From an uncultured Spirochaetales bacterium (GTDB lineage: Bacteria; Spirochaetota; Spirochaetia; Sphaerochaetales; Sphaerochaetaceae), in assembly GCA_944388965.1 (NCBI GenBank), contig CALXKL010000001.1:62001-126000 (forward strand): DNA of 64,000 nucleotides, in the 5' to 3' direction. Position numbers and translations under genes: made by a program. Shown one piece after another: positions 15,305-26,904 of the stretch. Below the pieces are notes generated by a model. That model was not told the DNA's origin and searched no databases. It saw nothing but the letters and a program-made list of their open reading frames with translations. How positions within the stretch are numbered: position 1 is the stretch's first letter; each line of letters begins with the position of its first letter.

Positions 15305-17098
15305 ATGAAGGCATTGACTGCAAACGAACTGAGGAGACTCTATATCGACTTCTTCGTGTCCAAGGGACACAGGCAGATCTCGGGGGCGTCCCTGATTCCC
15401 GAGAACGATCCGACCGTGCTGTTCACGACGGCGGGGATGCACCCCCTGGTGCCATACATCCTGGGAGCGGAGCATCCGGCCGGCAACCGCCTCGTCGACT
15501 ATCAGAAGTGCATCCGCACCGGCGACATCGACAGCGTGGGCGATCCGCATCATCTCACGTTCTTCGAGATGCTCGGCAACTGGTCGCTGGGTGCCTACTT
15601 CAAGAAGGAGGCGATCGAGTACAGCTATGAATTCCTGACGAAGCACCTCGGCATCGATCCCGAAAGGCTTTCCGTCACCGTCTTCGCCGGAGACGAGAAC
15701 GCTCCCCGTGACGAGGAGGCGGCCGCTGTATGGAAGAGCCTTGGCATCAGCGAGGACAGGATCTTCTACATGCCCAAGGAGGACAACTGGTGGGGACCCG
15801 CCGGTGAGACCGGTCCCTGCGGACCGGACTCGGAGATGTTCATCGACACCGGACGTCCCGCCTGCGGACCCGACTGTCATCCCGGCTGCTCCTGCGGCAA
15901 GTACTTCGAGATCTGGAACGACGTCTTCATGGGCTACAGGAAGGACGAGAAGGGCGCCTACAACGAGATGGACAGGAAGTGCATCGACACCGGAATGGGC
16001 ATCGAGAGGACCATCGCCATCCTCCAGGGCAAGAAGAGCGTCTACGAGACAGAGGTCTTCACGCCGATCATCGCGAAGGTCGAGGAACTGACGGGCAGGA
16101 AGTATGGTGCAGACGAAGAGGACGACATGTCCATCAGGATCATAAGCGACCATATCCGCACGAGCGTCTTCATACTCGGCGACCAGAGGGGCGTCGCTCC
16201 GTCCAACGTCGGGCAGGGCTACATCCTTCGCCGTCTGATCCGCCGCGCGGTACGTCATGGCAGGAAGCTCGGCATCGACCACGCATTCCTTTCGGATGTC
16301 GCCTCCGTCGTGCTCTCCCTCTACCAGGATGCCTATCCGGAGCTCAAGGAGCATGAGAGCTTCATCTTCGAGGAGCTGAAGAAGGAGGAGGCCAAGTTCT
16401 CCGACACCTTGGTCAAGGGCGAGAAGGAGTTCGAGAAGATGCTGCCCAATCTCATGAAGGGCACCAGCAGGACGATCTCCGGACGCCTGGCGTTCAAGCT
16501 GTACGACACATACGGCTTCCCGATCGAGCTTACCGAGGAGCTGGCGAAGGAGCATGGCTTCAGCGTCGATGTGAAGGGCTTCGAGGAGGCCTTCCAGAAA
16601 CATCAGGAGATAAGCCGTGCAGGTGCCGAGCAGCAGTTCAAGGGCGGTCTTGCCGACCACAGCGAGGCGACCACCGCGCTTCATACCGCGACGCACCTTC
16701 TGCACAAGGCCCTCTCCGTGGTCCTGGGCGGCTATGTCAAGCAGCTGGGAAGCAACATCACCGCAGAGCGTCTGCGCTTCGACTTCAACTGCCCCAGGCC
16801 GATGACCAAGGAGGAGATCCGCCAGGTCGAGGACCTGGTCAACGAGCAGATCCAGAAGGACCTTCCCGTCACGATCGACGTGATGAGCGTCGACGAGGCC
16901 AAGGCTCTCGGCGCCGCCGCCCAGTTCGACGCCAAGTACGGCGAGAAGGTCAAGGTCTACTCCATCGGCGACTTCTCCAAGGAGGTCTGCGGGGGACCCC
17001 ATGTCGAGCACACCGGAACCATGGGACATTTCCGCATCGTGAAGGAGCAGTCCTCCAGCGCCGGTGTTAGACGCATCAAGGCGGTCCTGGAGAAATAG
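15305..17098 (+). CDS. alaS: Alanyl-tRNA synthetase, short form
   Basis: 597 residues against about 875 in E. coli. The class II catalytic core (LRRLYIDFFVSKGHRQISGASLIP, TAGMHPLVPYILG, FFEMLGNWSLGAYFKKEAI) and the editing domain with the zinc-type residues H460, H464, C562 and H566 (HTATH, EVCGGPHVEH) are complete. The C-terminal C-Ala/DHHA1 domain is absent. A similar short AlaS is known from Borrelia, so this is a spirochaetal trait and not a truncation here: the stop is followed by a hairpin. Confidence 0.95.
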   Translation: MKALTANELRRLYIDFFVSKGHRQISGASLIPENDPTVLFTTAGMHPLVPYILGAEHPAGNRLVDYQKCIRTGDIDSVGDPHHLTFFEMLGNWSLGAYFKKEAIEYSYEFLTKHLGIDPERLSVTVFAGDENAPRDEEAAAVWKSLGISEDRIFYMPKEDNWWGPAGETGPCGPDSEMFIDTGRPACGPDCHPGCSCGKYFEIWNDVFMGYRKDEKGAYNEMDRKCIDTGMGIERTIAILQGKKSVYETEVFTPIIAKVEELTGRKYGADEEDDMSIRIISDHIRTSVFILGDQRGVAPSNVGQGYILRRLIRRAVRHGRKLGIDHAFLSDVASVVLSLYQDAYPELKEHESFIFEELKKEEAKFSDTLVKGEKEFEKMLPNLMKGTSRTISGRLAFKLYDTYGFPIELTEELAKEHGFSVDVKGFEEAFQKHQEISRAGAEQQFKGGLADHSEATTALHTATHLLHKALSVVLGGYVKQLGSNITAERLRFDFNCPRPMTKEEIRQVEDLVNEQIQKDLPVTIDVMSVDEAKALGAAAQFDAKYGEKVKVYSIGDFSKEVCGGPHVEHTGTMGHFRIVKEQSSSAGVRRIKAVLEK

Positions 17099-18100: not shown

Positions 18101-18143
18101 GATATGATGGCACAGATACTTGAGAACAATCAGGAGGCCGGAT

Positions 18144-18554
18144 ATGGCAAAGGATATTGCAGGATACACGGACAGACAGATGATGAAGGACTTCGACAGG
18201 ATGCTCGACTCCTTCTTCGGACATGCGGACAGGATGCCCAGCGTGGACATCAGGCAGGACAGGGATTCCTACGTGGTGAGGGCCCGGGTGGCGGGGTACA
18301 GGCCGGACGAGCTCAATGCGTACGTCGAGGACCACGTGCTGCACATCGTGGGACGCAGGGCCGATGAGGAGAAGGGAAACAGGAAGTACATCACCCGCGA
18401 ACGCAGATGCGAGAGCTTCGAGAGGAGCTTCACGCTGCCCGAGGACGCCGACGAGCAGAGGCTGGAGGCGAGCTGCAGGAAGGGTGTGCTGGAGCTGGTG
18501 GTCCCGAAGAAGGCGAAGGCCGAGCCCAGAAGGATAGAGGTGAAGGTCAACTGA
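18144..18554 (+). CDS. Small heat-shock protein, Hsp20 family
   Basis: ATP-independent holdase. 136 residues from the ATG at 18144 with AGGAGG (18132-18137). The alpha-crystallin domain runs from about residue 32 to the end: PSVDIRQDRDSYVVRARVAGY, VLHIVGRR, RSFTLPEDAD, and the closing GVLELVVPKKA. The N-terminal arm is short. A second hsp20 follows 28 bp downstream. A sigma-54-like promoter lies before it; no CIRCE element is visible. Confidence 0.93.
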   Translation: MAKDIAGYTDRQMMKDFDRMLDSFFGHADRMPSVDIRQDRDSYVVRARVAGYRPDELNAYVEDHVLHIVGRRADEEKGNRKYITRERRCESFERSFTLPEDADEQRLEASCRKGVLELVVPKKAKAEPRRIEVKVN

Positions 18555-18582
18555 GACCTGTGATGATAGGAGGATAGGCAAG

Positions 18583-19005
18583 ATGAGATACTATTACACG
18601 AGCGACCCGTTCAACGGGCTCTTCGACGATCTTTTCGGAAGCTGGAGCGACAGCGGTAGGAGGTTTCCTCCTGTGGACCTGTACGAGACGGACAAGGCGT
18701 ACGTGATCGAGATGGAGGTGGCCGGATACGGCGAGGACGAGGTGAGGCTGCATGTGGACAGGCACGTCCTTGAGATCTCGAGCGAGGGGGTGAAGGAGGC
18801 CGAGGACAGGAGCTATCTGACCCACGAGATCCACACGCCGGCGTTCAGGAGGAGCTTCAGCCTGCCGGAGAACGTCGACGAGGGGGCGATAGAGGCGTCG
18901 TACGACAACGGAATGCTGGTCGTCACGATTCCCAAGAAGGCCGAGGCGCAGGCGAGGAGGATAGAGGTGAGGATCGCCTCTCCAGCCGAAGGCGAAAAGG
19001 CCTGA
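18583..19005 (+). CDS. Small heat-shock protein, Hsp20 family (second copy)
   Basis: 140 residues, with its own AGGAGG (18570-18575). The alpha-crystallin domain includes PPVDLYETDKAYVIEMEVAGY, VLEISSEGV, RSFSLPENVDEG and GMLVVTIPKKAEAQ. It shares the same layout with the upstream copy but is clearly diverged, so the pair is an old duplication likely forming mixed oligomers. Followed by an 11-bp stem terminator. Confidence 0.93.
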   Translation: MRYYYTSDPFNGLFDDLFGSWSDSGRRFPPVDLYETDKAYVIEMEVAGYGEDEVRLHVDRHVLEISSEGVKEAEDRSYLTHEIHTPAFRRSFSLPENVDEGAIEASYDNGMLVVTIPKKAEAQARRIEVRIASPAEGEKA

Positions 19006-19750: not shown

Positions 19751-19775
19751 GTGGGCTGTGAAGAGGAGAGATGAG

Positions 19776-21773
19776 ATGATTTCAAGATCGGTCAGGAGGA
19801 TTGCCGTCGTCATCGGGCTTTCATTGATGCTGTTCGCCATGACGGCCTGCGAAGAGAAGATCGAACAGCCGCCACAGGGTACACCCGAGCCGCCTCAGGA
19901 GACCGTGGTCGAGAATAGATACCCTGATTGGGCGATCGGGAACTTCAAGGGATCCGTTGGCATCGACATGCCGGTCCTGATGGAGCTGTTCCTCACATCG
20001 GATGGAAAGACGGTGAGGATATTCTCGTTCATGGCTGGAGTCTTCGTCGGGGAGTCTGGCGTAATCGATATATCGAGTGCAGAACTCAGGCTTGAGAACG
20101 ATTCCGTCCTGACGATCGTCTCGACGGATCAGGGGACTGGAGTAGTCGGCAATATGGTTCTGACCAGAATCGAGGGCGGATTGCATGTGATGTTCTCATC
20201 GCCTGAAGAGAGCCTCGAGGTTTCAGGAGATCTCCTTGCGACGGACGAGCCTGCGCCGAACCCCGTCCAGCGAATCGAGATAGACGGTAAAGATGGAGAA
20301 AACGCAATTTATGTGGATGTGGGTGAAGAGCGTACTCTGACATACACCATATACCCGGAGGATGCGGATCCGGCCGAGTTCATCTGGGAATCAAGCTATC
20401 CTGACGAGATTGACATCGACAAGACGACCGGTCAGCTTGATGTGCAGGGCGATATACTTGATTCGGTTTTGATCACAGTCAAAGGAACCGGAATACTCGC
20501 CAATATAGAGGACTCATGCACTGTCTACATCTGCAAACCGATCGAGAGCATCGAGCTCACATGCACAGGTGAGAACAGAAGTCTTCATATAGGTCAGACG
20601 CTTGCGTTCTTCTCCTCTGCCTCTCCTTCCGGTTCCTTTAGCGCCTACTACGAATGGAATTCATCCGATAGCGCGGTCGTCACCATAGACGAAAGCGGAA
20701 ACGCAGAAGCTGTGGGAGAGGGGAAGGCCACGATAACGGTCACTGCCAGAGGAGTCACATCTGATGGGCTTGAAATCGAGGTCATCGGCATAGATTCGGT
20801 CACGCTATCGGAGTCTCAGCATGAAATGCAGCTGGGCGAGACATTCCAGCTGGATGCGACGGTCGATCCCGATTACGGATACGACAAGAGCAGAATCACA
20901 TGGACGAGCGACAATCCGGATGTCGCCAAGGTGGAGAACGGCCTTGTGACAGCTTTGGCGGAGGGAACGGCGAACATCACCGCAACAGCGGATGGTGTGG
21001 AATCCCAGGCCTGCAGGATCACGGTGCTTGATCCATATGTCCAGCTTCCTGTCGATTCATTCCATGCGCCTGAGTGGATCGTGGGCGAGTATGTCTCGGA
21101 TTTGCCTAGGCAGTATGAGATCCAGGGGGTCCGGGAGCCGGTGGAAATGACACAATACCTTTCGGTCACCGACAATGGTCTGCAGAATCTGGTCGACTGT
21201 GGTGATGCTCTCTATGACCACCTGGCTTACGGAAAGTCCGGCTTCACGATCACGAAGCAGGAGGCGAATACCACAAAATGGAACATACACTATGAGTGGG
21301 AACGTTCTAACATGAAGACAATCAAGGGAGAGATCCGGATGAGTCTGTCCAATGACGTTGTGACAATGGATATCGAAGACAACGTCGGCTTTGAAGAGTC
21401 GTTCGAGTTCATGGAGAAAGCGGTCCCCGAAAAGCCGATCCTGAGCGAGAGTGACCTCTATGTCATAAACTGGTGCAGTTATCTTTCTACCGTCGTTGAA
21501 GAACGGCCATTGCCGGAAGGTGTGAGCGAAACATCGCCAGATGTATATACGTTATCGGGATACGAGATGCGGGTTTCTCCTGATGATGTGTTCACCGTGG
21601 ACGGGACGGTATGCACCAACATGATGAATTCGTATTATGACGTGGTCATAGACGGACATGACGTCGAATGGCATGCAGGCTCCATCGATATCATTCCGGA
21701 TAATCCGGTGCAGCTGTTTTCCTACGTGTATGATGGAATGAATCTGCAGCTTCCCGTGTTGTGGACGAGTTGA
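19776..21773 (+). CDS. Lipoprotein with bacterial Ig-like (Big2) repeats
   Basis: 665 residues from the ATG at 19776, behind GAGGAG at 19763-19768. A signal peptide with hydrophobic VVIGLSLMLFAMTAC ends in a relaxed spirochaetal lipobox (Cys after TA), followed by a Pro-rich linker. About three Big2-like domains lie in the middle, seen by repeated SDNPDVAKVENGLVTALAEG-type strands (also DSAVVTIDESGNAEAVGEG and PVQRIEIDG). The C-terminal third is unassigned. It is probably surface-exposed or periplasmic. Regulated, by inference, by the divergent XRE protein. Confidence 0.82.
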   Translation: MISRSVRRIAVVIGLSLMLFAMTACEEKIEQPPQGTPEPPQETVVENRYPDWAIGNFKGSVGIDMPVLMELFLTSDGKTVRIFSFMAGVFVGESGVIDISSAELRLENDSVLTIVSTDQGTGVVGNMVLTRIEGGLHVMFSSPEESLEVSGDLLATDEPAPNPVQRIEIDGKDGENAIYVDVGEERTLTYTIYPEDADPAEFIWESSYPDEIDIDKTTGQLDVQGDILDSVLITVKGTGILANIEDSCTVYICKPIESIELTCTGENRSLHIGQTLAFFSSASPSGSFSAYYEWNSSDSAVVTIDESGNAEAVGEGKATITVTARGVTSDGLEIEVIGIDSVTLSESQHEMQLGETFQLDATVDPDYGYDKSRITWTSDNPDVAKVENGLVTALAEGTANITATADGVESQACRITVLDPYVQLPVDSFHAPEWIVGEYVSDLPRQYEIQGVREPVEMTQYLSVTDNGLQNLVDCGDALYDHLAYGKSGFTITKQEANTTKWNIHYEWERSNMKTIKGEIRMSLSNDVVTMDIEDNVGFEESFEFMEKAVPEKPILSESDLYVINWCSYLSTVVEERPLPEGVSETSPDVYTLSGYEMRVSPDDVFTVDGTVCTNMMNSYYDVVIDGHDVEWHAGSIDIIPDNPVQLFSYVYDGMNLQLPVLWTS

Positions 21774-21903: not shown

Positions 21904-24327
21904 TCACCTCGTCGGCATGCTCGCCCAGTAAAGGTCGTATGTCTTCAGGGCCTTTCTGAAGTCATCCAGCAAGATATCGTCGTCACAGATGAACGTGACG
22001 GTCTTCTGTGCCGTCGGCCTGATCGAGAACAGGTTCTCGCTGAACGTGCCTCTGAGGTCTCCTGCATCGAGATAAACCTGGAATGCAGGATAGGTGCAGC
22101 TGACGGTACAGGTGAAGTTCCGTCCCGTCTTCACGACATCCACCTTGAGCTGTGGATCGACGAAGCGGCATCTCTTGGGCTCCTCCAGGAGCACCAGGTC
22201 CTCGCGGTAGATGTCCGGAGTGGAGAGCTTGACGTAGGCGAACGCCTCTGCAGGATTCCTTATGAACGACGAGTATTCCGTACGGCAGATGTCGGTCAGC
22301 GAGCGTGGAGGAAGCACCTTCCTGAACACCTGCATCTTCAGCTTGTCGCCATGGAAGGAGGAGAACTTCAGCGAGACCTTGACCTCCTGCTCCCCGCTGC
22401 TGTCGTTCAGGGCCATGACCGTCACGTAGCCATCCTTCCTGAGGCAGACGGTGGTTATCGGGGCAAAGATGTTCCTCATCTGGTACATCAGCATCTTCCA
22501 CTTGCCGCTGTGCTCGATGGCACTCTCGTCGGCTGCCGGGTAGCTTGATGTCAGCGCCTTGATGAACAGCCCCATGCATCTGGACCCATGGCTCCTGTAG
22601 CGGTCCACCATCGACGATATGGTCTCCGCCTGCACCAGCTGGGACAGGTAGATCATCTTCTCCAGACTGTCCGGGAAGCGGTAGTGCACGAGTATCGAGG
22701 AGACTATCAGGGAGAAGGCCCCATGCATGCTCTGATGCTTCATCATGCTGTCGGTCGCGATGTTCAGCTCCCCGTCCTCGCAGTACCGCCTGACCGTCGT
22801 GAGCGATGGGATGGAGGGGAACGAGAACGACGATACGAACCTGGGTACGTCGTCACCATCCCTTTCAAGCGTCTCCAGAGTGGAGTTGTCCTGACTGTAT
22901 GAAAGACCGTATGAGACGGACTCATGCGTCCTCACCGTCGTCACGGTCTCCTCTATGCCGGAGTGCGGCACATAGACGAGCGAGGGGGCAAGCCTGCGCA
23001 TCGCATTCTCTACGACTCCGTTGTTCAGCCGGTCGTATTCGACCATCCCTCTGGAATCCAGGTCGGGAAGTGCAGGCGAGCCACCGCCACACATCAGCAC
23101 GATGGACGGATGGCTCTTGAGACGGAGTATCTGGTATTCGAGCTCCTGTTCGACCTCTGTCCTGAACTCCTGCGTCTGCGGATACCTGGCCTCGTCGAAC
23201 ATGAAGTCCTGCCAGACCATGAGACCGAGCCTGTCGCAGCTGTCGTAGAACACCTCGCTCTCGTAGGCGCTGGAGCAGTGGACACGCACGGCGTTGAATC
23301 CGACCTGGAGAGCGCTCTGCAGCGCCCTTATGCATCTGGTCGGGCTGATCGTAGAGGCCAGCAGGTCCAGTCCCGTCCATACGACCCCCTTCACGAAGAC
23401 GGGACAGTCGTTCACGTACAGCGTGAACCGGCGCCCATGCTCATCGGGGGAATTGTCCAGATGTACCGTCCTGAAGGCTATCATGCGCTTGTCGCTATGC
23501 GATGCGAACGAGATGTCCATGGGATACAGGTGCTGGCCGCCGAGACCTGCGGGGTACCAGCGTGCCACATCCTCTTCGGGAATCGTGAACGTGAACGAGT
23601 AGTATCCGTTGCCAGGTGTCACGTGCGTGACCGTGCACTCGCTTCTGAGCGCTATGCTTACGTTGAAGTCGACGTCGCATTCCCTGAACACGTCGGCGGT
23701 GATCTCCACCTTCATGATCCAGTTGTGGTCCACAAGGCGCGGGATGCAGTTCCAGCTCTTCACGATGAGCGTGTCATCGACCACCAGCCTGACCGGTTCG
23801 TATATTCCGACAGGAGTTATGGAGTAGGGGCCGAAGTGTCGTGCACACTTGCGTACCAGGGCCTGGCGCGGCAGGGATGGCGAGAGGTCCTGCCTCCTGT
23901 CGAGCTCCTTCTCGAGCGGGTCGAAGACGATCTGGATGGTGTTCTCGCCATCCTCAAGGGCCGGGGTGACGTCGAACATGTAGCGGGCGAAGGCGTTCGA
24001 CATGCGCCCAATCGACCTTCCGTTCACCATGACGGTGGCGAACGTGTCCACCGACGAAAGCACGAGCGTGCATACGTCGGATGGCCTTCTGCCGACTGTG
24101 AAGGTGTTCGACACGGACCATCTGCAGCAGGATATGAAACGGCTCGAGAGCGCGTTCTCGCCCTTGCAGGGATCGGCTATGAAGCCGCCTGCCTGGAGGG
24201 CGCTGTGAATGTCGAACGGCAATGTGACCTCCACCTGTCTTCCGCACAATGACGGGCAGTGGAGTCTGAGGATATCTTCATCCAGGCACCTGAGAGTCCA
24301 GGAGCCTTCAAGCACTATTGTCTCCAT
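21904..24327 (-). CDS. Glycoside hydrolase family 2 (beta-mannosidase-like) protein lacking both catalytic glutamates
   Basis: 807 residues with the beta-mannosidase order: N-terminal sugar-binding domain, immunoglobulin-like domain, then a TIM barrel with PVFVKGVVWTG, the SEVFYDSCDRLGLMVWQDFMF block and RLKSHPSIVLMCGGG. In active enzymes the acid/base is the Glu of SGNNE and the nucleophile is the Glu of SEFG. Here these positions are Ser417 (CGGGSP) and Ser500 (FVSSFSFPS), and the RVWGGG motif reads RVHCSS. The reading frame is intact, so it is probably a pseudoenzyme retained for binding, not a broken gene. No signal peptide is seen. Confidence 0.78.
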   Translation of the reverse strand: METIVLEGSWTLRCLDEDILRLHCPSLCGRQVEVTLPFDIHSALQAGGFIADPCKGENALSSRFISCCRWSVSNTFTVGRRPSDVCTLVLSSVDTFATVMVNGRSIGRMSNAFARYMFDVTPALEDGENTIQIVFDPLEKELDRRQDLSPSLPRQALVRKCARHFGPYSITPVGIYEPVRLVVDDTLIVKSWNCIPRLVDHNWIMKVEITADVFRECDVDFNVSIALRSECTVTHVTPGNGYYSFTFTIPEEDVARWYPAGLGGQHLYPMDISFASHSDKRMIAFRTVHLDNSPDEHGRRFTLYVNDCPVFVKGVVWTGLDLLASTISPTRCIRALQSALQVGFNAVRVHCSSAYESEVFYDSCDRLGLMVWQDFMFDEARYPQTQEFRTEVEQELEYQILRLKSHPSIVLMCGGGSPALPDLDSRGMVEYDRLNNGVVENAMRRLAPSLVYVPHSGIEETVTTVRTHESVSYGLSYSQDNSTLETLERDGDDVPRFVSSFSFPSIPSLTTVRRYCEDGELNIATDSMMKHQSMHGAFSLIVSSILVHYRFPDSLEKMIYLSQLVQAETISSMVDRYRSHGSRCMGLFIKALTSSYPAADESAIEHSGKWKMLMYQMRNIFAPITTVCLRKDGYVTVMALNDSSGEQEVKVSLKFSSFHGDKLKMQVFRKVLPPRSLTDICRTEYSSFIRNPAEAFAYVKLSTPDIYREDLVLLEEPKRCRFVDPQLKVDVVKTGRNFTCTVSCTYPAFQVYLDAGDLRGTFSENLFSIRPTAQKTVTFICDDDILLDDFRKALKTYDLYWASMPTR

Positions 24328-24402: not shown

Positions 24403-24471
24403 CTTGACTGCCATTTGTCGTGAAGATAACATCAAGACGTAAAGAGGCTCCGCCGATGAACGGTAGCCTCA
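24403..24471 (+). repeat. Antitoxin-type direct repeat, copy A (orphan)
   Basis: 69 bp that match copy B (24623-24691) at 63 positions. It contains its own promoter, TTGACT (24404-24409), 17-bp spacer, TAACAT (24427-24432), and the downstream GAGGC...GCCTC hairpin. Similarity to copy B fades after this; a short ATAAGCCG match remains. No toxin-like small gene is found opposite it, so it looks like an antitoxin RNA gene that lost, or never had, its toxin. The rest of 24472-24622 holds no gene I can support. Confidence 0.65.
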
Positions 24472-24622: not shown

Positions 24623-24691
24623 CTTGACTGCCATTTGCCGTGAAGATAAGATTAAGATGTAAAGAGGCACTGCCGATGAACGGTAGCCTCA
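24623..24691 (+). repeat. Antitoxin-type direct repeat, copy B (paired with toxin)
   Basis: Second copy of the 69-bp repeat with six differences from copy A. It holds the promoter and 5' hairpin of the antisense RNA described at 24659-24745. Confidence 0.75.
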
Positions 24692-24745
24692 TCCAATTCA
24701 AGCGAATAAGCCGTCTTGGTTGAAGCAGGGCGGCTTATCTTATAA
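24659..24745 (+). ncRNA. Antisense antitoxin RNA of the type I toxin-antitoxin locus
   Basis: Predicted from a strong promoter, TTGACT (24624-24629), 17-bp spacer, TAAGAT (24647-24652), with +1 near 24659. The RNA has a 5' hairpin (GAGGC 24664-24668 with GCCTC 24686-24690) and ends in a terminator stem ATAAGCCG (24706-24713) with CGGCTTAT (24731-24738) and a U-rich tail. Its 3' end overlaps the stop codon and last codons of the small toxin gene on the other strand. This 3'-overlap layout is that of TxpA/RatA and BsrG/SR4 in Bacillus. Not shown experimentally. Confidence 0.65.
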
Positions 24746-24803
24746 CCGAAACAACAAGCGTGATAATCGCGATCACGATCATCAGAGTCTCATAGTCGCT
24801 CAT
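24735..24803 (-). CDS. Small hydrophobic type I toxin, putative holin-like toxin family
   Basis: 22 residues, starting MSDYETLMIVIAII and ending VVSVIR, so an N-terminal polar cap, a single membrane helix and a basic end. The start ATG at 24803 follows an excellent AAGGAGGTG (24819-24811) in the context GGAGGTGATGTCCTATG typical of this toxin family. An antisense RNA gene overlaps its 3' end. Such peptides damage the membrane when not silenced. Too short for usual gene finders; the combination of ribosome-binding site, helix and antisense RNA makes it convincing. Confidence 0.72.
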   Translation of the reverse strand: MSDYETLMIVIAIITLVVSVIR

Positions 24804-24916: not shown

Positions 24917-24946
24917 AGTATAGCAGAAGCGTCATGGGAGAGGCAA
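24917..24946 (-). promoter_or_regulatory. Candidate promoter of the type I toxin
   Basis: Minus strand TTGCCT (24946-24941), 18-bp spacer, TATACT (24922-24917). It gives a toxin mRNA leader of about 107 nt. Confidence 0.45.
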
Positions 24947-25001
24947 TGAACGCATTTACCGAGCGTGATGCATGGCTGTGTCCCATTTCCCCTTTTCCTG
25001 T

Positions 25002-25007
25002 TACAAT
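25002..25007 (+). promoter_or_regulatory. -10 box of nadE, leaderless-type
   Basis: TACAAT lies exactly seven bases before the ATG at 25015. The -35 is unclear. Confidence 0.35.
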
Positions 25008-25014
25008 TCCAGGC

Positions 25015-26904
25015 ATGAGAGATGGATACATAAAGGTCGGCTCTGTGAGCCCTCATGTCATAGTCGCAGACACGGTCTCCAATGCCTGCAGGATCGTAGA
25101 ACTTGTCCGACAGGCGGAGGGGAAGGGCGTCAAGGTGCTTGTCTTCCCGGAGCTGAGCCTCACCGGCTATACGCTTGGGGACCTGGTGTTCTCACCTGAT
25201 CTCCTGCAGGGTGCCCTCAGGGCTCTGGAGAAGGTGTGCGAGGAGACACGGGAGCTGGATGCGCTGGCAGTGGTCGGCCTCCCGCTCCAGGACCGCGGCA
25301 AGCTGTACAACACCGCCGCCGTCATCCATCATGGCCGCGTCCTTGCATTCGTGCCGAAGACGAACATCCCCTCCTATGGCGAGTTCTACGAAGGCCGCTG
25401 GTACGAGGGCGCCTTCGATGGCATCAGGACGGTGAGGTTCGCCGACTACGACGTGCCGTTCGGCCGCGACATCATCATCCGCACTCCGCTTCCTTCGTCG
25501 TTCGCCTTGGCCGTGGAGCTGTGCGAGGACCTGTGGGTGCCGCAGAGTCCTTCCGTCTCCCACGCCATGGCCGGGGCCACCGTCATCGCCAACCTCTCTG
25601 CAAGCGACGAGCTGATCGGCAAGGACGACTACAGAAGGGACCTTGTGATGTTGCACAGCGCCCGGCTGATGTGCGGCTACATATATTCCAATGCAGGAGA
25701 AGGCGAGAGCAGCACCGACATGGTGTTCGCCGGTCACAGCATGATCGCCGAGGACGGCACCGTGCTCGCCGAGCAGATGCTTGCAGGGGAACGCATTCTC
25801 GTCAGCGAGATCGACACCTCGTACATCGCCAGCGAGAGGATGAAGCACACGACCTTCACAAGTACAGACGTCGGCTCCCATATGGAAGTATGGACCCGGT
25901 TCGACGAGTGCGAGACATACCTTACGCGTACATACCCCCGCTTCCCGTTCGTGCCGCATGACGAAGGCGAGGTGGCGAAGAGGGCCGAAAGGATAGTCAC
26001 GCTGCAGGCGCTGGGACTGAAGAAGCGTCTTGAGCACACCCGCTCTAAAGGAGCGGTCGTAGGGCTTTCCGGAGGTCTGGATTCGACCCTGGCGCTTCTT
26101 GTGACGGTCAGGGCCTTCGACATGCTGTCGCGCGACAGAAAGGACATTCTCGCCATCACGATGCCCTGCTTCGGCACCACGAAGCGCACCAGGAGCAATG
26201 CGGAGATCCTGGCCACGGCGCTCGGCGTCTCGTTCGAGGAGGTCGACATAACCGCATCCGTGAGAAGCCATTTCAAGGACATCGGGCAGAAGGAGGATGT
26301 GTACGACGTCACCTTCGAGAACGCGCAGGCCAGGGAGCGTACCCAAGTCCTCATGGACAAGGCCAACATGACGGGATCGCTTGTAATCGGTACGGGGGAC
26401 CTGTCCGAGCTTGCGCTTGGCTGGGCGACCTACAACGGCGACCATATGAGCATGTACGCGGTGAACGCCTCCGTTCCCAAGACCCTGGTGAGACATCTGG
26501 TGCACTGGTTCGCTTCGTGCGATGCCTCCTGCCACGACGTGCTTGAGGACATCCTCGACACCCCGGTTTCGCCGGAGCTGCTTCCCGCCAACGCGGACGG
26601 AACCATAGCACAGGTCACCGAGGACCTGGTCGGGCCGTATGAGCTTCACGACTTCTTCCTGTACTACTTCGTGCGTGCGTCGTTCACCAGGGAGAAGATA
26701 ATGAGAATCGCCTACAGGACGTTCGAGGGGGTCTACGACAGGGCTGTGGTCGACAGGTGGCTGGACAACTTCTTCCGGCGCTTCTTCAGCCAGCAGTTCA
26801 AGCGCTCCTGCCTGCCTGACGGTCCCAAGGTCGGCTCCGTGACGCTTTCCCCGCGTTCGGACTGGAGGATGCCCTCCGACGCCTCCTCAGCACTCTGGAG
26901 GTAG
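25015..26904 (+). CDS. nadE: Glutamine-dependent NAD+ synthetase
   Basis: Last step of NAD synthesis. 629 residues from the ATG at 25015; this start fits homologues that begin with a GFIKV-type strand (here MRDGYIKVGSVSP). An upstream in-frame ATG at 24946 with GGGAGAGG would add 23 residues. The nitrilase (glutaminase) domain has Glu46 (FPELSLTG), Lys115 (VPKTNIP) and Cys170 (ELCEDLW); the synthetase domain has the P-loop SGGLDS at 352-357 and GTGDLSELALGWATYNGDH. All catalytic residues are present. Its 3' end overlaps the convergent GNAT gene by 18 bp. Confidence 0.94.
   Translation: MRDGYIKVGSVSPHVIVADTVSNACRIVELVRQAEGKGVKVLVFPELSLTGYTLGDLVFSPDLLQGALRALEKVCEETRELDALAVVGLPLQDRGKLYNTAAVIHHGRVLAFVPKTNIPSYGEFYEGRWYEGAFDGIRTVRFADYDVPFGRDIIIRTPLPSSFALAVELCEDLWVPQSPSVSHAMAGATVIANLSASDELIGKDDYRRDLVMLHSARLMCGYIYSNAGEGESSTDMVFAGHSMIAEDGTVLAEQMLAGERILVSEIDTSYIASERMKHTTFTSTDVGSHMEVWTRFDECETYLTRTYPRFPFVPHDEGEVAKRAERIVTLQALGLKKRLEHTRSKGAVVGLSGGLDSTLALLVTVRAFDMLSRDRKDILAITMPCFGTTKRTRSNAEILATALGVSFEEVDITASVRSHFKDIGQKEDVYDVTFENAQARERTQVLMDKANMTGSLVIGTGDLSELALGWATYNGDHMSMYAVNASVPKTLVRHLVHWFASCDASCHDVLEDILDTPVSPELLPANADGTIAQVTEDLVGPYELHDFFLYYFVRASFTREKIMRIAYRTFEGVYDRAVVDRWLDNFFRRFFSQQFKRSCLPDGPKVGSVTLSPRSDWRMPSDASSALWR

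Follow-up and report, generated by a model that had tools for sequence, protein, structure and literature searches.

A beta-mannosidase homologue conserved without its catalytic glutamates points to a pseudoenzyme in gut spirochaetes

Klotho (GH1-like) and the chitinase-like lectins (GH18) are pseudo-glycosidases, in which a glycosidase fold has been kept for non-catalytic binding. These proteins belong to other GH families and are mostly eukaryotic, whereas the protein described here is a bacterial member of GH2. It shares a five-domain fold with the GH2 beta-mannosidases BtMan2A (2je8), Xanthomonas exo-beta-mannanase (6byg, 6byi) and mouse MANBA (6ddt) (Z 41–45, 775–795 residues), and has the PF22666 N-terminal and PF17753 C-terminal domains in common with them. 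Unlike these enzymes, however, it lacks the catalytic glutamates and most of the substrate-contacting motifs, and its relatives lack much of the barrel. The GH2 case also differs from Klotho and the chitinase-like lectins in that intact and pseudo copies occupy one locus and the catalytic domain has been removed progressively. No report of a pseudo-beta-mannosidase appeared in the titles and abstracts searched, a set that mostly does not cover subscription papers.

The window, a 64,000-nt stretch of a contig from an uncultured Spirochaetales bacterium (Sphaerochaetaceae), contains an uninterrupted 807-codon ORF that runs from its ATG at 24327 down to 21904 on the minus strand; the plus strand of this interval is interrupted by stops. 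The intact, full-length frame described in the initial annotation is thus present, on the minus strand. The source genome (a 2.1-Mb assembly) has three further GH2 loci. The encoded protein begins METIVLEGSW, with no evident signal peptide at this N-terminus, and consists of a galactose-binding-like domain (23830–24237, residues 31–166; PF22666, E = 2.2e-25), a first Ig-like domain, IgA (23473–23772, residues 186–285), a remodelled (beta/alpha)8 barrel (22468–23430, residues 300–620), and two C-terminal Ig-like domains, IgB (22183–22467, residues 621–715) and IgC (21928–22182, residues 716–800; PF17753 Ig_mannosidase, E = 3.2e-16), all on the minus strand. The N-terminal and C-terminal GH2 domains exceed the Pfam cut-off; the GH2_C barrel model (PF02836) has no match in the protein. 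AlphaFold2 nevertheless predicts the complete five-domain beta-mannosidase fold with confidence (pLDDT 90.4, pTM 0.92). The best PDB matches of this model by VIA are beta-mannosidases (Z 45.4 for 5n6u and 45.0 for 6ddt), with Z about 45 to the Dictyoglomus, mouse and Xanthomonas enzymes, so the superposition that had been proposed as a check recovers the GH2 fold.

In phmmer alignments, which pair the protein with solved beta-mannosidases along most of its length, Ser417 (23077–23079) stands opposite the acid/base Glu, which is E477 in the Xanthomonas enzyme and was mutated in 6byi, and Ser500 (22828–22830) opposite the nucleophile Glu (E575, mutated in 6byg). GNNE has become GGGS, and SEFGYQSFPS has become SSFSFPSIPS. 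This agrees with the initial annotation, which had named both serines, and no substitute Glu aligns with either active-site position in the window protein. Both glutamates are present in 77/77 outgroup enzymes checked, so the double loss is not a matter of chance. The protein therefore has the fold of an active GH2 enzyme and neither of its catalytic glutamates. The claim that the surrounding barrel motifs are conserved holds in part: CDRLGLMVWQDFMF is retained, whereas WGGGxYE, GDMHxW and WQLNDxWP, the motifs that contact the sugar, are absent. All nine non-catalytic members of the genus have replacements at 90 columns where seven intact relatives do not vary, including WGGG, GDMH, WQLND and SEFGYQ residues. 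Some of the new residues are themselves invariant (S352, S353, E459, G474-L475-S476, F503-P504 and D600-E601), and 120 columns are invariant in these nine proteins and not in the intact set. The pattern is one of consistent replacement rather than random decay.

Both glutamates are absent in 9 of the 16 species genomes of the genus, the window's included, which answers whether orthologues share the two substitutions; the eight other proteins are 51–84% identical to the window protein. Three genomes encode intact GNNE/SEFG proteins (about 45% identical) and four have no gene. Intact and pseudo copies lie at the same site, divergent from nadE (NAD synthetase; 24934–26904, plus strand), and homologues of MBL, polA, coaE and kamA follow beyond nadE on most contigs that reach that far. 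The window gene was probably inherited vertically at this fixed chromosomal site. In G004, G005 and G007, nadE is present and the gene is absent, with no remnant at the nadE locus by tblastn, and in G005 nothing is left between hsp20 and nadE; the gene is therefore dispensable.

A family-wide search (139 genomes), together with inspection of sister-genus loci, showed that the conserved pseudo-beta-mannosidase is more widespread than the initial annotation implied. In the sister genus, about 40 species carry non-catalytic, mostly barrel-deleted homologues, many of which, though not all, adjoin nadE. One member (G066) has an intact copy at the nadE locus, and another (G096) has a full-length protein of 801 aa without the catalytic glutamates; the others measure 727, 685, 633–662, 605–610, 565–592, 485–505, about 445 and 348 aa. 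Residues 381–490 are missing in part or whole, with segment 421–490 gone from most of the proteins, while IgB and IgC are never lost. The 485-aa member still has a confident predicted fold (pLDDT 92.8, pTM 0.90), and 480 residues of its model align with mouse beta-mannosidase. Some sister-genus genomes (G079:C11, L166; G082:C44, L164) encode, in addition to the non-catalytic protein, an intact beta-mannosidase from a different subfamily. In a class-wide search (394 genomes), C-terminal-domain matches at E ≤ 1e-48 occurred only in the host's family, with weaker ones elsewhere.

Of the roughly 50 species, nearly all have an open frame. Few pairs are unsaturated; from those with dS < 1 we obtained dN/dS of 0.143 for the full-length pair G000–G002, 0.10–0.12 among the full-length G001, G010 and G012, and 0.051 and 0.049 for two close shrunken pairs. 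The values for nadE in the same pairs are 0.05–0.11, so these proteins stay under purifying selection at a level near that of nadE. The distribution of constraint, however, differs between the two classes. In intact enzymes, the barrel/IgBC distance ratio is 0.47, and is below 1 in 153/153 pairs; in three pseudo clades it is 1.20, 1.31 and 0.96, where pairs inside one clade are not independent and the last value (the 12-clade) is close to parity. Measured by these distances, relative constraint has moved from the barrel in intact enzymes to the C-terminal Ig domains in pseudo proteins. Across the 48 non-catalytic proteins, the selected part is these two domains, and the C-terminal block is nearly invariant. 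With homology to an active family, absence of the catalytic residues and purifying selection on the frame, the protein has the attributes of a pseudoenzyme, in which the GH2 active site has been dismantled and the protein retained. The suggestion of selection on a non-catalytic role is accordingly supported, both by losses common to orthologues and by dN/dS of 0.05–0.14.

We scanned for residues kept in the pseudo proteins and their nearest intact enzymes, and not elsewhere. The scan yielded exactly five columns: K654, K662, Y698 and K700 in IgB, and R770, which lies in IgC with the FSEN..SIRPTAQK block. That is 5 of 182 testable columns in IgB/IgC against 0 of 424 elsewhere, a contrast that is post hoc because the columns were found by scanning. 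The five residues occur in 48/48 pseudo proteins and in 8–9 of 9 related intact enzymes, but in 0/10 intact enzymes of other families and at most 2/18 outgroup sequences. In sequences not used to define the signature, 16 of 18 further intact relatives carry all five and the remaining two carry four, and 77 outgroup beta-mannosidases carry at most one. Two highly diverged sister-genus members (G065 and G099), found solely via an IgBC profile, have a partial signature that reads RKTRF. R708 is present in 48/48 pseudo proteins and is variable in intact ones. Because intact relatives already carry the five residues, these predate the loss of catalysis, which leads to the reading that the ancestor was bifunctional, combining catalysis with an IgB/IgC binding surface that the five residues would mark. 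Since the residues are basic and aromatic, the partner may be anionic or a protein, in the cytoplasm. They may instead have a structural role or form part of an oligomer interface.

We lean towards a beta-mannosidase whose ancestor was bifunctional: catalysis was lost, and a putative binding function was kept in the C-terminal tail. Conservation suggests a non-catalytic function for the window protein, and favours the C-terminal Ig-like domains over the barrel as its site. We hold more tentatively the broader proposal that spirochaete beta-mannosidases had both functions from the outset, with a conserved basic and aromatic surface on the C-terminal Ig domains for a cellular partner; catalysis would then have been lost independently at one locus in several gut lineages, and the barrel would be shrinking while the moonlighting function is kept. 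The sugar binding suggested in the initial annotation, read as a lectin-like or sugar-sensing role of the former active-site pocket, would fit the retained fold, some retained barrel residues and the genus-specific invariant residues of the pocket region (S352, S353, E459, G474-L475-S476, D600-E601). This is unlikely, however: the protein has lost WGGG, GDMH and WQLND, which contact the substrate, selected sister-genus homologues lack residues 421–490 and much of the pocket, with the catalytic half of the barrel largely deleted, and the barrel diverges at least as much as the Ig domains, opposite to the pattern among intact enzymes. The same invariant columns might instead reflect a neo-enzyme, in which full-length proteins of the genus perform other chemistry in their remodelled pocket with the new E459, D600 and E601, each present in 9/9. 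Yet these three residues are not kept in the sister-genus proteins, most of which are without segment 421–490, and many invariant columns are expected among nine proteins that are only moderately diverged, which makes new chemistry very unlikely. Stepwise shrinkage in the sister genus, an in-frame TGA in the G087 homologue, the 348-aa remnant in G093 and the clean absence in G005 are what a functionless, decaying relic would leave, but such a relic is hard to credit given dN/dS comparable to that of nadE, the open frames and the near-invariant C-terminal block.

How often catalysis was lost depends on which part of the protein is compared. In the flanking-gene tree, the nine pseudo species of the genus group together (support 93) beside the three intact ones (100), and in trees of IgA, IgBC and flanking genes the pseudo group of the genus and G096 fall beside intact relatives. 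A single clade of all pseudo proteins was rejected on IgBC (p-AU = 0.0004), as was a union of the genus pseudo proteins with G096 on IgA (p = 0.0025) and IgBC (p = 0.0003). The barrel and N2 trees instead group pseudo with pseudo (99 and 91), and Pro504, beside the lost nucleophile, is found in 32/33 pseudo and 0/37 intact proteins. IgA of the window protein is 67–71% identical to that of intact genus copies and 20–29% to that of other genera, while N2, barrel and IgB reach only 34–48% against the intact genus copies; IgA (23473–23772) is mosaic in the genus, possibly through recombination. The barrel and N2 groupings, Pro504 and the mosaic IgA could all follow from a single ancestral loss, after which recombination would have restored the N-terminal domain and barrel to the intact nadE-side copies. 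We regard such a history as rather doubtful, since pseudo proteins group with intact relatives in the trees of IgBC, IgA and flanking genes, and monophyly of the genus is not rejected by barrel or N2 (p = 0.31 and 0.21), so that long branches can explain the pseudo–pseudo grouping. Repeated loss of catalysis with long-branch convergence is the favoured history, and catalysis was probably lost at least twice.

The surroundings of the gene differ between intact and pseudo copies. The intact gene of G066 adjoins GH20, sugar-binding protein and permease genes, and the three intact genus members adjoin phosphomannomutase and an ABC transporter. In contrast, most pseudo copies examined adjoin housekeeping or unrelated genes; a few are near a PfkB sugar kinase and LacI regulator, a branched-chain amino-acid ABC transporter or a TRAP transporter. 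The mannan-pathway families GH130 and GH26 occur in none of the genus genomes listed, intact or pseudo, and their co-occurrence is uninformative. As intact copies tend to lie near glycan-use genes and pseudo copies mostly do not, loss of catalysis may be tied to glycan use given up, which would have left only the putative binding or scaffold function. If genes of this kind were annotated as beta-mannosidases, the use of mannan or N-glycans would be overestimated from the genomes of gut spirochaetes. The same-locus series, from active enzyme through full-length pseudoenzyme to barrel-less remnant in about 50 species, allows the part that a glycosidase scaffold plays apart from catalysis to be mapped comparatively and tested directly. 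If the bifunctional reading is true, it is also a natural series that separates catalytic from moonlighting functions.

The region between nadE and the pseudoenzyme gene is about 600 bp here, compared with about 30–110 bp in most genus orthologues. It contains a 22-codon ORF, MSDYETLMIVIAIITLVVSVIR (24735–24803, minus strand), behind an AAGGAGG ribosome-binding-like site, and 69-nt direct repeats at 24403–24471 and 24623–24691. MSDYETLMIVIAIITLVVSVIR has a weak likeness to Hol-Tox holin-like toxins (PF16935, E = 0.55, below cut-off), and a type I toxin-antitoxin insertion is possible on this basis. On the other side, the convergent downstream neighbour (19758–21773, plus strand) encodes a 671-aa protein with Big_2 Ig-like domains, which is absent by tblastn from the corresponding site of the genus orthologue loci. 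Several orthologue contigs end at tandem genes that we take to be small-heat-shock (Hsp20-like) genes (18120–19005, plus strand, in the window), probably because the repeat interferes with assembly. Elsewhere in the window, 15305–17098 (plus strand) encodes an alanyl-tRNA synthetase of 597 aa, below the usual bacterial length; a short form of this enzyme is typical of spirochaetes.
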